A program made the position numbers and the translations under genes. A DNA stretch of 53,315 nucleotides from Coriobacteriales bacterium (GTDB taxonomy: Bacteria; Actinomycetota; Coriobacteriia; Coriobacteriales; UMGS124): positions 1-53,315 of the forward strand of contig JAFWFL010000038.1 of NCBI GenBank assembly GCA_017515595.1. Reading direction: 5' to 3'. Below the pieces are notes generated by a model. That model made no database searches and was not told where the DNA came from. It worked only from the letters and a program-made list of their open reading frames with translations. Within the stretch, counting starts at the first letter, position 1, and each line of letters opens with the position of its first letter. Of this stretch, positions 20,521 to 53,315 are shown one piece after another.

Positions 20521-20714
20521 TTCGTGCATGAAAAACTTCCTTTTATGACAACTTAAATGCGTTTGAGTTGTCATTTTCTCTCCATTGAGCTCCTCATGCC
20601 GAGAAGCCCGTGCTTTTGACCTGCGCTTTCTTCTCGGCATAGAATCGCACAGCTCTCCGCATGACAACTCAAATGCGTTTGAGTTGTCATGAAACGAAGA
20701 ATTTCATGCACGAA
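20521..20714. mobile_element. MITE-like palindromic element, copy 1
   Basis: 194 bp with terminal inverted repeats beginning TTCGTGCATGAAA. It contains three hairpins: TGACAACTT..GAGTTGTCA, the REP-like ATGCCGAGAAG..CTTCTCGGCAT (20596-20640), and ATGACAACTC..GAGTTGTCAT (20661-20690). No open frame. A second copy lies at 22595-22787; the two bracket tetR and the CPBP gene. Confidence 0.7.
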
Positions 20715-22594: not shown

Positions 22595-22787
22595 TCGTGC
22601 ATGAGAATCTTCCTTTTGTGACAACTTAAATGCGTTTGAGTTGTCATTTTCTCTTCATTGAGCTCCTCATGCCGAGAAGCCCGTGCTTCTGACCTGCGCT
22701 TTCTTCTCGGCATGAAATCACACAGCTCTCCGAATGACTACTCAAATGCGTTTGAGTAGTCATAAAAGGAAGTTTTTCATGCACGAA
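22595..22787. mobile_element. MITE-like palindromic element, copy 2
   Basis: 193 bp, same layout as 20521-20714. Its third hairpin reads ATGACTACTC..GAGTAGTCAT (22734-22763): the A-T pair of copy 1 is T-A here, so the stem is kept. A partial flank-like third copy is at about 23529-23572. Confidence 0.7.
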
Positions 22788-26352: not shown

Positions 26353-26419
26353 CCCTTTCATGTGCACCCCGGCGTGATACTCTAAACAGATGTCTCGCCG
26401 GGATCTCATATACCAAAAA

Positions 26420-26452
26420 CCTGCCAAAAGCCTGAGTTTTGGCAGGTTTTTT
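26420..26452 (+). terminator. Rho-independent terminator of flavoprotein 24751
   Basis: CCTGCCAAAA / TTTTGGCAGG perfect 10-bp stem followed by TTTTTT. Confidence 0.9.
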
Positions 26453-26455
26453 ACA

Positions 26456-26487
26456 TGCCGAGAAGCCCGCGCGGGTTTCTCGGCATT
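26456..26487. repeat. REP-like hairpin GCCGAGAAGCCC..GGGTTTCTCGGC
   Basis: ATGCCGAGAA-gCCCG-cg-CGGGt-TTCTCGGCAT, 15 paired positions. One of the best members of the window-wide family (others at 20596, 22669, 37442, 43176). Confidence 0.75.
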
Positions 26488-26500
26488 TACTGTTATATGA

Positions 26501-26535
26501 GAATCTGCCTAAGGCGCTGGCCTTTTGGCAGATTC
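26501..26535 (-). terminator. Terminator hairpin after flavoprotein 26548
   Basis: GAATCTGCC / GGCAGATTC stem with an inner AAGG/CCTT stem, just after the stop on the minus strand. The same hairpin follows the paralogue (37490-37524). Confidence 0.6.
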
Positions 26536-26547
26536 ACACTGCGTGTC

Positions 26548-28182
26548 TTACTCTAAAGCTGCGATCTTTTGGCCAACGAGCCAGCCCCAGGCGAGGCAAC
26601 GGCCATGGGAGTTACCGGGCATATTGATGGGATAGTCAACTGCATACAGATCGCCAGAAGCATTGCCTACCGCATACAGGCCGGGGATTGGGTTCTCGTC
26701 TTTGTCGATGCACTGAAGATCAGTGTTGACCCTCAGACCGCCTACAACAACGAGGATGGCAGGGCCGGCCTTGAGAGCGTAGAATGGACCTTCCTTGATG
26801 GGATACAGGAACTCGGGCTCCTTTGCGAAGTCATCGTCCACGCCCTTCTCGCAGAGCTCGTTGTAACGCTCAACCGAGGCGAGCATGTTCTCTTTGTTTA
26901 CTTGGCCTGCTTCTTCCAGCATGTCAGCAAGCTCTTCAAGCGTATCTGCCTTAAAGCCGTTACCGCCGCCAACAGCCATGTTAACAGCCCAGTCAATCAT
27001 GGAGTGGTCAAATTCCTGGCCAACGTTTCTGCTCATGGAATCCCAGAACATACCGCCGCCGTAATTAAGGCTGTCCTTGGTATCTTCGCCATAGTTGGAG
27101 TCAAAAATGGAGTAAGCATAGCAACCGGGCTGCTTCAGCATTTGCAGGGACTTCGCCTGAACCCAGTTGGCCTCGTTAAAGAAGCGCTTGCCGTTCTTGT
27201 TGAGGAACAGGAACGGACCATGGAACCATGCGCAGGCTTGGGGATGCAAAGCGATGGGAAGCGGACCATCCTGCATTACAGCGCCTACCCACATGCCCAT
27301 CTTCTGGCCATCACCGGTAGCGGCGCCGGCCGGAGTGTATTCATCCCTCAGAACACCCTTCATCATGGGCTCGCAGTATGCGTCCATCATCTCGGGATCC
27401 TGATGGATATCGCCGGTGGCGAGAATAACGGCCTTTGAAGCCAGGACCTTCTTGTAGCCGTCTGCAGAAGAGACAATAGCGCCAACAACGCGGTCGCCTT
27501 CCTTGATAAGCTGCTCTGCTCTATGCTCAAAGTAGAACGGAACACCCATATCCAGGCAATCAGCAAACATAAGGGCGGTAGGCATAAAGCCGCTTACGCC
27601 GTCAGGAATCTCAAAGTTGCCGGCGCCAAAGGTGTGGAAGTCCGGCTCTTCCGGAGCAATGCGGCTTGCGGAATAACCGGCATAGATATTGTATGTAGCG
27701 CCCCTCTTGTCTGCCTTATCCAACAGCCAGTCCATAGCAGGGCCGGTACTGTCGAACCACATCTTGACCAGGGCTTCGTTATTGCGGTTGCCACAGGTAC
27801 GGTTCCAGCGATACTGCGCTGCTACAGGCTCAATCTCATATCCCAGTTGCTTGTTCAAACGGGAGTTGCAGGCGCCAACGCCGCCGCCACGGCCGTTTGC
27901 TTGCGTGGTCTTCTCAAAAACAGCAACCTGAAGCCCATTCTCTGCGCAGGAGCAGGCAGCTGCTACGCCAGAAGTACCGGCGCCTAAAACGGCGACTTCG
28001 ACCTCGATGGTCTCTACAATCTGGCTGTCATCAATTGGTGCGGGAGGCTCTTCCCAGCTCCATCTCTTAGCTGCAGGAGCGGCCTTCTCTTCTTCTGCCA
28101 GAGCAGGGGCTACGCTCAAAGCAGCCATTCCGGCAGCGCTTGCTGCTGCGCCTTTCACAAAATCTCGTCTTGCCAGTTCCAT
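26548..28182 (-). CDS. Tat-exported FAD-dependent reductase, paralogue A of a recent duplicate pair
   Basis: 544 residues. Signal ARRDFVKG at 4-11 with cleavage likely after PALA near 29; Rossmann GAGTSGVAAA at 67-76; GDGQKMGMWVGA mid-protein; C-terminal FAD motif IPGLYAVGNASGDLYAVDYP. The catalytic region reads AGPAILVVVGGLRVN, not the fumarate pattern. It differs from the gene at 37537 at about 25 residues and one gap, i.e. about 95 percent identical, with eight changes between residues 162 and 202. Upstream (about 110 bp) and downstream (about 50 bp) flanks are also shared. Substrate unknown. Confidence 0.93.
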   Translation of the reverse strand: MELARRDFVKGAAASAAGMAALSVAPALAEEEKAAPAAKRWSWEEPPAPIDDSQIVETIEVEVAVLGAGTSGVAAACSCAENGLQVAVFEKTTQANGRGGGVGACNSRLNKQLGYEIEPVAAQYRWNRTCGNRNNEALVKMWFDSTGPAMDWLLDKADKRGATYNIYAGYSASRIAPEEPDFHTFGAGNFEIPDGVSGFMPTALMFADCLDMGVPFYFEHRAEQLIKEGDRVVGAIVSSADGYKKVLASKAVILATGDIHQDPEMMDAYCEPMMKGVLRDEYTPAGAATGDGQKMGMWVGAVMQDGPLPIALHPQACAWFHGPFLFLNKNGKRFFNEANWVQAKSLQMLKQPGCYAYSIFDSNYGEDTKDSLNYGGGMFWDSMSRNVGQEFDHSMIDWAVNMAVGGGNGFKADTLEELADMLEEAGQVNKENMLASVERYNELCEKGVDDDFAKEPEFLYPIKEGPFYALKAGPAILVVVGGLRVNTDLQCIDKDENPIPGLYAVGNASGDLYAVDYPINMPGNSHGRCLAWGWLVGQKIAALE

Positions 28183-28224
28183 TGAACTTTTCCTTTCTGT
28201 TCCGTGGATAGTTCACAATGTGTT

Positions 28225-28266
28225 ACCGGGGAGGATTGCCCTCCCCGGTAGTTATAATGATATAAC
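28225..28266 (-). promoter_or_regulatory. Leader hairpin and GTTATA-TATAAC dyad upstream of flavoprotein 26548
   Basis: ACCGGGGAGG / CCTCCCCGGT perfect 10-bp stem (28225-28249), then GTTATAATGATATAAC (28251-28266). The dyad is kept with one change in the paralogue (39238-39253), while the G+C stem is degraded there. Confidence 0.45.
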
Positions 28267-28363
28267 TATTTTCTTAAAGGTACAATATGCCGAGAAAAAC
28301 TCTTCTGCCTCTCACTTGGAAAGTTGCTCTCGGGTTCCCGGTCAGGCGAGCATAGCGCCCGCG

Positions 28364-37290: not shown

Positions 37291-37441
37291 GCCTGCCTTA
37301 CTGAGTGGCCAGGCAGACTGGTTCCTTATAAGGCCAGCCCCTCTGCAGAACCCGGCGTACGGCCTTTCCGCACCGGGCTTCTCGTAAAGCTGATACCAAA
37401 TAACCTACCAAAAGCCCAAGCTCTCTGGCTGGTTTCGAAAA

Positions 37442-37475
37442 ATGCCGAGAAACCCTTTGATGAGTTTCTCGGCAT
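37442..37475. repeat. REP-like hairpin
   Basis: ATGCCGAGAAAC / GTTTCTCGGCAT, 12 bp, 10-base loop, followed by TTCCTTTT. It may double as terminator. Confidence 0.75.
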
Positions 37476-37489
37476 TTCCTTTTATAGGT

Positions 37490-37524
37490 GAATCTGCCAA
37501 AAGCGCTATCCTTTAGGCAGATTC
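37490..37524 (-). terminator. Terminator hairpin after flavoprotein 37537
   Basis: GAATCTGCC / GGCAGATTC as at 26501-26535. Confidence 0.6.
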
Positions 37525-37536
37525 ACACAATATGTC

Positions 37537-39168
37537 TTACTCTAAAGCTGCAATCTTCTGTCCAACGAGCCAGCCCCAGGCGAGGCAACGGCCATGGGAG
37601 TTACCGGGCATATTGATGGGATAGTCAACCGCATACAGATCGCCGGAGGCATTGCCAACCGCATACAGGCCAGGGATTGGATTCTCATCTTTGTCGATGC
37701 ACTGAAGATCAGTGTTGACCCTCAAACCACCCACAACAACGAGGATGGCAGGGCCGGCCTTGAGAGCGTAGAATGGACCTTCCTTGATGGGATACAGGAA
37801 CTCAGGCTCCTTCGCGAAGTCATCGTCCACGCCCTTCTCGCAGAGCTCGTTATAGCGCTCTACCGACGCAAGCATGTTCTCTTTGTTTACTTCGCCTGCT
37901 TCTTCCAGCATGTCAGCCAGCTCTTCAAGCGTATCTGCCTTGAAGCCGTTCCTGCCAATGGACATATTGATGGCCCAGTCAATCATGGAAGGATCAAATT
38001 CCTGGCCAACATTTCTGCTCATGGAATCCCAGAACATACCGCCGCCGTAATTCAAGCTGTCCTTAGTATCTCTGCCATAGTTAGAATCAAAAATTGAGTA
38101 AGCATAGCAACCGGGCTGCCTGAGCATTTGCAGGGACTTTGCCTGTACCCAGTTTGCCTCATTAAAGAAGCGCTTGCCGTTCTTATTAACAAACAGGAAC
38201 GGGCCATGGAACCATGCACACGCTTGGGGATGAAGAGCGATGGGGAGAGGAGCATCCTGCATAACAGCGCCTGCCCACATACCCATCTTCTGTCCGTCAC
38301 CGGTAGCGGCGCCGGCCGGGGTGTATTCATCTCTCAGGACACCCTTCATCATAGGCTCGCAATATGCATCCATCATCTCGGGGTCTTCATGGATATCGCC
38401 GGTGGCAAGAATTACGGCCTTGGAAGCGAGAACCTTTTTATAGCCGTCTGCGCAAGATACAATGGCGCCCACAACACGGTCGCCTTCCTTGATGAGCTGC
38501 TCTGCTCTGTGCTCAAAGTAGAAAGGAACACCCATATCCAGGCAGTCTGCAAACATAAGTGCGCAGGGCACAAAGCCAGCTACGCCATCCGGAATCTCAA
38601 AATCGCCGATGCCAAAGGTGTGGAAATCAGGCTCTTCAGGAGCGATGCGGCTTAAAGAATAGCCGGCATAGAGATTATACGTGCAACCCCTCTTGTCTGC
38701 TTTGTCGAGCAACCAGTCCATAGCGGGGCCGGTATTGTCGAACCACATCTTGACCAGGGCTTCATTATTGCGGTTGCCGCAGGTACGGTTCCAACGATAC
38801 TGTGCCGCTACAGGCTCAATCTCATATCCCAGTTGCTTGTTCAGACGGGAGTTGCAGGCGCCAACGCCGCCGCCACGGCCGTTTGCTTGCGTGGTCTTCT
38901 CAAAAACAGCAACCTGAAGCCCATTCTCCGCGCATGAGCAGGCGGCTGCCACGCCAGAGGTACCGGCGCCTAAAACAGCAACCTCAACCTCGATGGTTTC
39001 TATGATCTCGCTGTCATCAATAGGTGCGGGAGGCTCTTCCCAGCTCCATCTCTTAGCTGCAGGCATTGCCTTCTCTTCTTCAGCCAGAGCAGGAGCTACG
39101 CTCAAAGCAGCCATCCCGGCAGCGCTTGCGGCTGCGCCTTTCACAAAATCTCGTCTTGCCAGTTCCAT
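37537..39168 (-). CDS. Tat-exported FAD-dependent reductase, paralogue B of a recent duplicate pair
   Basis: 543 residues with the same signal, Rossmann and C-terminal FAD motifs as paralogue A (26548). The changes cluster at residues 162, 166, 172, 187, 189, 197, 200 and 202 (A to C, I to L, A to L, A to I, N to D, S to A, M to V, T to C), with the rest thinly spread. Three of the replacements or nearby ones introduce cysteine. This may alter substrate choice, but position in the fold needs a model. Upstream DNA has its own dyad at 39324 not present in A, so control differs. Confidence 0.93.
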   Translation of the reverse strand: MELARRDFVKGAAASAAGMAALSVAPALAEEEKAMPAAKRWSWEEPPAPIDDSEIIETIEVEVAVLGAGTSGVAAACSCAENGLQVAVFEKTTQANGRGGGVGACNSRLNKQLGYEIEPVAAQYRWNRTCGNRNNEALVKMWFDNTGPAMDWLLDKADKRGCTYNLYAGYSLSRIAPEEPDFHTFGIGDFEIPDGVAGFVPCALMFADCLDMGVPFYFEHRAEQLIKEGDRVVGAIVSCADGYKKVLASKAVILATGDIHEDPEMMDAYCEPMMKGVLRDEYTPAGAATGDGQKMGMWAGAVMQDAPLPIALHPQACAWFHGPFLFVNKNGKRFFNEANWVQAKSLQMLRQPGCYAYSIFDSNYGRDTKDSLNYGGGMFWDSMSRNVGQEFDPSMIDWAINMSIGRNGFKADTLEELADMLEEAGEVNKENMLASVERYNELCEKGVDDDFAKEPEFLYPIKEGPFYALKAGPAILVVVGGLRVNTDLQCIDKDENPIPGLYAVGNASGDLYAVDYPINMPGNSHGRCLAWGWLVGQKIAALE

Positions 39169-39323
39169 TGAACTTTTCCTTTCTGTTCCGTGGATAGTTC
39201 ACTATGTGTCACCAAGGAAGATTGTCCTTCCCGGGTAGTTAAAATGATATAACTTATTTCTTAAAGGTACAATATGCCAAAAACAATGATTCCACCTCTC
39301 CATTGACAAACGGTTTCACTGAT

Positions 39324-39358: not shown

Positions 39359-39429
39359 AATACATCCGCCCGTCTTGGAGCTTTTCTTACTCAAAATCTG
39401 CTCGCAAACTCAAAACCCACCATGACTTG

Positions 39430-39859
39430 GTGCCAGAGATCTTGGTTCACGGGAGGATTGGTGGCAGAGATCCCCGTCTACGTGAGGATTGCTGGCAGAG
39501 ATCCCCATTTACGGGAGGATTGGTGGCAGAGATCCTCGTTTACGAGAGTCGCTCCGCCACAAATTTGACCATCTGTACAACCCGTTGGCTCACTTTTGAC
39601 CGTTTGCGCGGTATAAAAGGATAAGTAGCAAGGGCTTCTCAAACAAAACGTCTCATGAACTGGTGTTTTGATAAAACCGCGGAGAAACCCTTGCGAATGG
39701 TTTTGTGCATCTCGTCAAGTTCGTGTCAACAGGATGTGCAAACGCTCAAGTTCGTGCCAACGGATTGTGCAGGTGGTCAAGTTTGTGCCGGAGCGACTCA
39801 CGTAAACGGGGATCTCTGCCACCAATCCTCCCGTAAATGAGGATCTGTGCCATCAAAAA
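39430..39859. repeat. Palindromic array of 31-bp units, element A
   Basis: Left arm: four tandem 31-bp units (39430, 39461, 39492, 39523; core GGCAGAGATCC..GTTTACG), then, after 2 bp, two units of a second type (39556, 39587; core TTGACC.TTTG). Centre: GCAAGGGCTTCTC (39628-39640) and its complement GAGAAACCCTTGC (39682-39694). Right arm: the same unit types inverted, five exactly contiguous 31-bp units from 39705 to 39859. The whole is a 430-bp imperfect palindrome. Element B (41809) has the same plan. No open frame explains it. Confidence 0.85.
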
Positions 39860-39895
39860 GCCCCGCCCTCCTGTTCAGAAGAGGGCGGGGCTTTT
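39856..39895 (-). terminator. Strong terminator of flavoprotein 39927
   Basis: Perfect 15-bp G+C-rich arms AAAAGCCCCGCCCTC / GAGGGCGGGGCTTTT with a T-run on the minus strand. It touches element A. Confidence 0.9.
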
Positions 39896-39926
39896 ACTTA
39901 ACGAATCTTAAGGTCTTAGGGCTGGT

Positions 39927-41565
39927 TTATTTAACCCAGAACTTCTTGATCTCGTCATACTTGGCAGGATTGCTGGGCTCCAAACCACCGGTGGCAGCAT
40001 GGATACCGGCATAACGGCCCATGGTGATGTATGAACCGCAGCAGAGACCGCCCTGATAGAGGTTCCACTCGAGGCCACCGCAGATGTTGCCTGCGCCGGA
40101 GCCTACTGAGTAGAGGCCGGGGATGGGCTCGTCGTTGGCGTCGAGAACACGGCAGCAACCGTCAACCTCAACACCGGCGTTAATGGCGCTGCAGCGAATC
40201 CACTGACGGATGCCCCAGTAAGGAGGTGTGTCGATGGGGATCATCTTGTCCTTGGCTACACCAAACTCGGTGTCAAGGCCGTCGGCGCAGTGCTGGTTCC
40301 AAGCCTCAACGCTTGCGATGAGGTTCTCGGCCGGAATGCCAAGGATCTCAGCGAGTTCTTCGAGGGTGTCGGCACGATGGGTGTCAACAAGACCCGGATA
40401 TACACCGGTGGGATTCTCGAGGTAATCAGGGATGTAATTCTCGAGAGAAGCAATGGAGGTACGGGCGTTGTACTTGGCCTGGAACTCGTTGTCGAAGATG
40501 CGGAAGAAGTGACCGCGGTCCTCGGCGTTCTTGTTCCAAATGAGTGAGAGGTCCCAGGACTCCATGGGGATCTCTTCGTTCATGAAGCGCTTGCCCTCGT
40601 CATTGAGAGCCATGAAGGGATAGCTGGTCATAAACATAGGAGCAGCGTCCATGTCGTGCATGGTCTTGGCATGGTTTACCGGAACAAAGCGGCCGCCGGC
40701 CAGGATGCACAGAAGGATACCGTCAGCGGTGCGGTTGAACTGCTTGCGCTGGAAGGGAACTACATCGGGCGAATAGCGCTCTACGAGGCTCTCATTGTTC
40801 TGATAGTCGCCGGCAGCGATGATAACAGCCTTGGCAGCGTTGAACTTGATGTAACCGCTCTCATTCTTACCAATAACGCCCTTAACAGCGCCGCTCTCGT
40901 CCTGAATGAGCTGGACAGCCGGGGTGTCATAGAAGAACTGTGCGCCTTCAGCCTCAGCCGCGTTTGCAAGCCTGGTCATAATCTCGGTGTGGTTGAGAGG
41001 CTTGGGGCCGTAAGAGCTGAGAACTACGGCTGCGAGGTTGATCGTCATACTCGTTAACGGTGTGTGAGCAAGATGCGGGCGGGAAGCCAACTTCCTCAGC
41101 CTTGCCAAGGAGCCACATCTGGGTTTCGCCTGAATGGTATACAAAGTTGTCGAGAAGAGCAGGATTCATGCGGTAACCGCCGGCCTTACGCCATGCCTGC
41201 TTGTACTGAAGAAGACCAACCTCGGTGCTCTCTTCGAGAATAACGCCCGAGTCGCCGTTGCCGTTTGCCATAACAATGGATTCCTTCTGCAGGCAAGCAA
41301 CAGAAGCGCCCTCTCCCAGAGCGCCCCAAACAGCAGGAACACCTGCGGTACCGGCGCCAACAACAACAACGTCAACAGAAACCTCATCTGCAAACTCAGT
41401 AATAGGCTCAAGCTCAACAACAGAAGCCTCAAAGTCGGCAGCAATTAAACCTTTGGGATACTCAAAAGCGGCGGCTTCATCAGCAAGAGCCACATTGGCA
41501 GCAACAGCGGTTGCAGCAGCGGTAGCGCCGGCGGCCTTCAAGAAATCTCTGCGGTTCAGTTCCAT
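39927..41565 (-). pseudogene. Tat-exported FAD-dependent reductase, one frame break
   Basis: From ATG 41565 the frame gives a Tat signal NRRDFLKAAG, a Rossmann motif VVGAGTAGVPA near residue 70 and continues to HTVNEYDD; a second frame then continues INLAAVVLSSYGPKPLN to the C-terminal FAD motif IPGLYSVGSGAGNICGGLEW. One missing base near 41038-41044 accounts for the break. Repaired length is about 546 residues. Catalytic region reads WIRCSAINAGVEVD, again unlike fumarate reductase. The gene is bracketed by elements A and B. It is either a read error or a recent pseudogene, since the rest is intact. Confidence 0.85.
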
Positions 41566-41808
41566 AATAGTTCCCTTTCTGATCGATAACACACAAATGC
41601 ATGGGGCATTTGTTTTGACGACGTTGCATATAATGCCATGACTTGGTAAAACGCATGACATAATTTATGGCTATTGTTGAGAAAACTCTCATACATGAAA
41701 ACATAGATTATGGATTTACTTAAAAAACCAAAAACATAATTTATGGGAAACCCAAGGTGCAGGCTTTGCTCGAAAGATTGATAGATCTCACTTCACAAGA
41801 GCTGCTCT

Positions 41809-42111
41809 GACGTGAACTTGCCCATTTGCGCACTTCTCTGTCACGATCTTGACCGTTTGTACATCCCGTTGCCACGATCTTGACCGTTTGTACATCCCGT
41901 TGCCACGTTTTTGACCGTTTGTACATGGATAGCTGCAAGGGCTTCTCGGCAGCTCATTAAAACACCAGATAATTTTGTTTCCGGGCGGAGAAACCCTTGC
42001 TATCAACCCCTTTTAAATGCGCATATGCTCAAGATTGTTCCAACGGGATGTGCATATGCTCAAGATTGTGCCAACGGGATGTGCAAATGGTCAAGTTCAT
42101 GCCAGGGCAAC
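41809..42111. repeat. Palindromic array of 31-bp units, element B
   Basis: Left arm: four contiguous 31-bp units (41809, 41840, 41871, 41902; core CACGATCTTGACCGTTTGTA). Centre: GCAAGGGCTTCTC (41935-41947) and GAGAAACCCTTGC (41988-42000). Right arm: three contiguous inverted 31-bp units (42019, 42050, 42081). Same centre and period as element A. After it, GATAAAAGGGTT is repeated (42124, 42144). Confidence 0.85.
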
Positions 42112-53206: not shown

Positions 53207-53240
53207 CCAGACTTCTCCTTGTTCTATGACAGGAGACGGT

Positions 53241-53315
53241 TATGACAGGGGACGGTGGTTTGACAGGAAAAGAACGGGTATGACAGGGGACGGTGGTTTG
53301 ACAGGAAAAGAACGA
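53241..53315. repeat. 38-bp tandem repeat upstream of mnmA
   Basis: Two nearly full units (53241-53278, 53279-53315) of TATGACAGGGGACGGTGGTT followed by TGACAGGAAAAGAACG. A degenerate earlier unit starts near 53225. The array may continue beyond the window. Confidence 0.75.

Follow-up and report, generated by a model that had tools for sequence, protein, structure and literature searches.

The window, by which we mean the whole stretch of 53,315 nucleotides that was analysed, is contig 65 (C65) of a 3.3-Mb draft assembly of 134 contigs and harbors two palindromic arrays (elements A and B) on either side of a flavoprotein gene. This gene carries a twin-arginine signal and is split between the ORFs 39927-41144 and 40954-41661, which differ in frame and overlap at 40954-41144; the interval 39927-41661 appears to hold either a frameshifted gene or a sequence error. 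The window also contains a 1.9-kb duplication (37393-39300 and 26410-28313, 89% identical) that comprises a flavoprotein gene together with its upstream region and terminator, and of which the copy at 26410 has no adjoining array. The components of the two elements are as follows (coordinates of the window).

39428-39554, plus strand: left arm of A, four outer-type 31-bp units (TGGCAGAGATCCCCGTTTACGGGAGGATTGG type; unit starts 39431, 39462, 39493 and 39524)
39555-39627, plus strand: left arm of A, inner-type units (TGGCACAAACTTGACCGTTTGCACAACCCGT type), the second one degenerate
39628-39694, read on the minus strand: core of A, 67 nt, stem GCAAGGGYTTCTC/GAGAAACCCTTGC, conserved ACACCAG
39698-39790, minus strand: right arm of A, three inner-type units, inverted
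39791-39856, minus strand: right arm of A, two outer-type units, inverted, last bases TGTGCCATCA
39856-39895, no strand: terminator-like GC-rich hairpin abutting A, outside the repeat family
41805-41934, plus strand: left arm of B, clear inner-type units at 41839 and 41870, outer and core-proximal units degenerate
41935-42000, plus strand: core of B, 66 nt, GCAAGGGCTTCTCGGCAGCTCATTAAAACACCAGATAATTTTGTTTCCGGGCGGAGAAACCCTTGC
42012-42111, minus strand: right arm of B, inverted inner-type units, clear at 42043 and 42074

Both elements share one plan, in which the arms are made of tandem 31-bp units mirrored around a core of 66-67 nt with the stem GCAAGGGYTTCTC/GAGAAACCCTTGC (39628-39640/39682-39694 in A, 41935-41947/41988-42000 in B). 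This plan, as proposed by the sequence-only reading (tandem units, a central stem, then the units inverted), was borne out by repeat and inverted-repeat searches and by folding. The inverted repeats of A (39489-39607/39738-39856) extend over 119 nt with 87% complementarity and those of B (41788-41895/42017-42124) over 108 nt with 73%; Tandem Repeats Finder returned a period of 31 in or near A (39427-39548, 39703-39789 and 39797-39856) and in B (41842-41926 and 42017-42104); and the single-strand folds are far more stable than those of dinucleotide shuffles (z -19.7 for A, -9.5 for B). The units had been described as exact, which holds nearly so for the period, their constant feature, and not for their sequences, which are about 75-95% identical within one type. 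Of the individual units reported, the one placed at 41809 in B is degenerate (64% to its reference), while the five counted in the right arm of A are present and resolve into three of the inner and two of the outer type.

Genomic distribution of the repeat family

Searching the genome with B, the outer arm of A and a class II copy as queries, together with a covariance model of the core, we identified at least 18 loci (fragments excluded), which fall into two sub-families. Class I comprises about 13 elements, 12 of them recovered by the core model at E<=1e-11 and one added (C20:1223), located on contigs C65 (A and B), C91, C4, C26, C132, C72, C105, C13, C117, C89, C20 and C79; class II comprises at least five (two on C88, and one each on C34, C79 and C57/C133), and fragments of the family lie on C110 and C132. 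Every strong match of the core model falls inside an array locus. The class I core (GCAAGGGYTTCTCCGC..TTATTAAAA.ACCAGGTAAT..CGGAGAAACCCTTGC) is 64-67 nt long in every copy except that of C20, and the class II core is related to it and has a longer perfect stem. The elements measure about 200-550 bp, with inverted arms of up to about 200 nt and no transposase gene inside.

The 31-bp units carry a TGGCAC box (TGTGCCA when inverted), and consecutive unit starts are nearly all 31 bp, or a multiple thereof, apart. Inner (U1) and outer (U2/U3) unit types differ in sequence except for the box and are arranged with the outer type outside and the inner type inside; the claim that two types keep one register in A was confirmed, and the same was observed within single arms of C91, C13, C105 and C72. 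Imperfect palindromes are present inside single units (GATCC-N-GGATC in the outer type, CAAAC-N-GTTTG in the inner type). Unit sequence and number vary widely among copies, several of which (C89, C26 and C132) are truncated or decayed.

Each copy examined is placed between ORFs, the gaps being codirectional, divergent or convergent and the core having either orientation relative to the neighboring genes; we noticed no neighbor gene common to these copies. As the copies (at least 18 loci, all intergenic) adjoin unrelated genes, the bracketing of the flavoprotein gene that had drawn attention to A and B is incidental; a composite transposon around this gene was likewise rejected, since each array is a complete palindrome and the other copies have unrelated neighbors. 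Terminator-like hairpins abut several copies (A, C34, C57, C79 and C88a, as judged by eye). An assembly artefact is unlikely, since the family has numerous divergent copies that are independent of each other, though breaks of some contigs do coincide with elements.

Other palindromic repeat families coexist in the genome. One of them (L019:1356-1476 and L023:4114-4232) has TGCAAGTTATGACGGGYGCTAGCATGA arms and bears the motif GGGCTTCTCGGC near its centre; another, with TGACTACTCAAATGCGTTTGAGTAGTCA-like arms, has at least five copies (20541-20705 and 22606-22766 of the window; L022:3216-3435; L019:23-188; L025:1634-1835). Moreover, the end of the window (53225-53314, the contig end) consists of a 38-bp tandem repeat (ACGGGTATGACAGGGGACGGTGGTTTGACAGGAAAAGA), to which a sequence in L087 (GGGACGGTGGTTTGAC) is similar.

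Outside its own genome, the family was encountered neither in 299 genomes searched with B nor in 397 genomes of the order searched with a class II query, both searches having scored the best 2 candidates per genome, such that distant relatives could escape; a weak match in genome G037 (26 bp) lies in the core segment of the query. Neither of the two closest relatives, which belong to the same family and another genus, has the repeat; exact tandem patterns returned nothing from 84,980 genomes or from viral contigs (collections that may omit records of the own genome), and no match came from blastn searches of plasmids with A or of phages with B. Judged by these sequence searches, the family is species-restricted and its build unusual, a close copy elsewhere not having been found.

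Possible mobility and candidate partners

The dispersal over at least 18 non-homologous intergenic sites, which had been suggested as a check on the two arrays, supports a mobile-element-like repeat, and on balance we favor, by a modest degree, the view that A and B belong to a species-restricted family of palindromic repeats that are non-coding, modular and MITE-like. The likeness to MITEs is extensive (small, non-coding, non-autonomous and dispersed elements with long inverted terminal repeats, strong folding and intergenic placement). Membership is not proven, since searches for target duplications and for a partner transposase both came up empty, and the family departs from a clean MITE in that the outer ends differ among copies and the arms are arrays of variable length. 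The mobile element end, one of the options in the sequence-only reading, is upheld as far as the dispersed copies go and finds no backing in target duplications or in a transposase with these ends. In nine elements inspected by eye, no target-site duplication was seen at the TGGCA boxes farthest out (a weak test on fuzzy ends); within the 134-contig draft we found neither an autonomous element with these ends nor an array with a gene inside; and no empty insertion site could be demonstrated, the paralogy with 26410-28313 (89%) stopping before A.

A related and, in our estimation, unlikely scenario is that the elements are internally deleted (MITE) forms of an IS21/Tn7/Mu-like element, whose units would be transposase-binding repeats and whose core would replace the genes. 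The ends of IS21-family elements, as those of Tn7 and Mu, are composed of multiple repeats (L1/L2, R1/R2) with the donor end CA (PMC10122671), i.e. several repeated transposase sites per end that are inverted at the other end; the units described here start with TGG and the arms are oriented as in transposon ends, with outer ends that are fuzzy. On the other hand, no transposase genes lie between the arms and no such full-length element was found in the genome, the IS21 IstA/IstB models (NF033546 and PF01695) remained below cut-off in the own genome (G000), the single IS21 copy observed in a family relative differs in its end repeats, and the absence of target duplications at the boxes inspected weighs in the same direction.

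We also considered a gene start (L107:1556-1868, 41 aa) that directly adjoins two 31-bp units at the end of contig C60 and is putatively IS1634-transposase-like. This candidate was discarded, as it had no match in Pfam, NCBIfam or tblastn, and the remainder of the element did not turn up among 100 contig starts. The flank of the C60 copy recurs at the end of contig C79 (99% over 120 bp), which makes the junction look like a later insertion and suggests an event with a long duplicated target. The end of this IS-like candidate matches the core of B at 16 of 17 positions, which amounts to no better than about 3 in 1000 shuffles when all cores are considered.

The fixed register across different unit sequences supports the units as DNA sites for a protein, and is the strongest hint that a single protein may read their spacing; to this extent it sustains the sequence-only suggestion, drawn from the 31 bp, of protein binding on one DNA face. 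The same features (a period close to three helical turns, one register shared by units of different sequence and the imperfect palindromes in single units) would also suit nucleoid or regulator binding arrays of the host that are kept for a function, e.g. in domain organisation or gene control. We regard this as improbable, for unit sequence and number vary, several copies are truncated or decayed, the neighbors have no obvious commonality and the relatives are without arrays.

The core motif

The core stem consists of two inverted copies of a 13-mer (GGGYTTCTCGGCA) that is found genome-wide, with 220 copies in the own genome; the shorter GGGYTTCTCGGC occurs 299 times as compared to a single copy of its reversed control. 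In the window, GGGYTTCTCGGC(A) (12/13-mer) is located at 1501, 2269, 16680, 20598, 20741, 22671, 26457, 26473, 37444, 41939 and 51824. The motif GGGCTTCTCGGC of the TGCAAGTTATGACGGGYGCTAGCATGA-arm repeat is the same as that of this 13-mer family, and the TGACTACTCAAATGCGTTTGAGTAGTCA-like-arm repeats also lie close to it. Two members of one genus in another family possess 250 and 239 copies of GGGYTTCTCGGCA, several other genera about 10-25, and the two other genomes of the own family none. Within sampled DNA of the genome, 30 of 36 matches are intergenic, with 82% of the DNA coding (the sample includes stretches fetched because of 13-mer matches); of 29 matches sampled from the distant genus, 18 fall in ORFs (a sample picked by matches and holding repeats). 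Furthermore, by our own count, about 15 opposite-strand pairs within 60 bp are present among the first 100 matches listed, and some of these pairs form terminator-like hairpins.

Such a distribution is reminiscent of DNA uptake sequences or of REPs, and the motif is perhaps a more interesting lead than the repeat family itself. We know of no uptake sequence in the group of this organism, and literature searches returned none, which is weak evidence. With REPs and their derivatives (BIMEs, REPINs) the family shares a core in which a short motif, present in hundreds of mostly intergenic copies, is paired in inverted orientation. REPs are 20-40 bp long and mostly belong to GTAG- or CGTC-tagged super-families, some being linked to RAYT transposases (PMC3733652, PMC2817692); the consensus of the core motif shows neither tag. 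The elements might also be uptake hitch-hikers, in which the inverted, uptake-like GGGYTTCTCGGCA would let natural transformation favor their spread and the arrays would be new multi-site ends, a reading to which we assign little probability.

Evolution of the arms

The two arms of an element have variants in common that are specific to their position: mirrored units are 75% identical as compared to 60% for non-mirrored ones (0 of 5000 permutations). Arm-to-arm identity declines with each 31-bp step outward (0.87, 0.84, 0.79, 0.70 and 0.63); from 87% beside the core it drops within four to five units to the level of the aligned background (about 62%). Left and right inner arms are identical, a private GAGTATGGGT variant included, in the element whose halves lie on contigs C133 and C57 and at which the assembly breaks. 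The mirrored variants and the outward decay of identity point to arms that evolve together as DNA, and one of two processes may account for them: correction of the arms against each other, or growth of the array from its centre. As mismatches between the arms are evenly split between G-U and A-C (76 and 71, no G-U excess), the correction seems to take place at the level of DNA rather than through selection for RNA pairing.

The even split also speaks against a conserved RNA duplex. A structured RNA was among the options of the sequence-only reading; that the elements are such a non-coding RNA, or a hairpin at which RNase III would process mRNA, is favored by the extremely stable folds and the terminator abutting A, and is rendered highly improbable by this mismatch test, by the lack of an Rfam match in the window and by the core occurring in either orientation to genes. 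The possibility that the units form a CRISPR array falls at once, since they are contiguous, without unique spacers, and inverted across the core.

Affinities and proposed origin

By behavior and placement, the nearest counterparts of the family are MITEs or BOX elements, but its in-register arm is unusual. Similar to BOX of Streptococcus pneumoniae (boxA-boxB(n)-boxC; PMC3049150), it is modular, intergenic and strongly folded and has variable tandem modules; however, BOX has single end modules and internal tandem boxB, whereas here tandem modules with a period of 31 form inverted arms around a hairpin core and fixed outer ends are not seen.

Each copy has a core hairpin of about 66-72 nt between two inverted arms of variable unit stacks (with TGGCAC/TGTGCCA-like boxes). 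Under the MITE-like reading, the 31-bp sites, which at three helical turns would present themselves on one DNA face, would be recognised by a protein, probably a transposase supplied in trans. Past spread would have placed the copies in intergenic gaps, the number of units would change through slippage or unequal exchange, and the arms of a copy would be kept alike by fold-back (cruciform/hairpin) repair, strongest near the core.

In a group from which we know of no such signal, the 13-mer linked to these repeats may serve in DNA uptake or as a terminator. If a transposase binds the 31-bp units, they would constitute a new type of multi-site end, and the mirrored, in-register 31-bp arms, an unusual build, may stand as a natural record of fold-back gene conversion.
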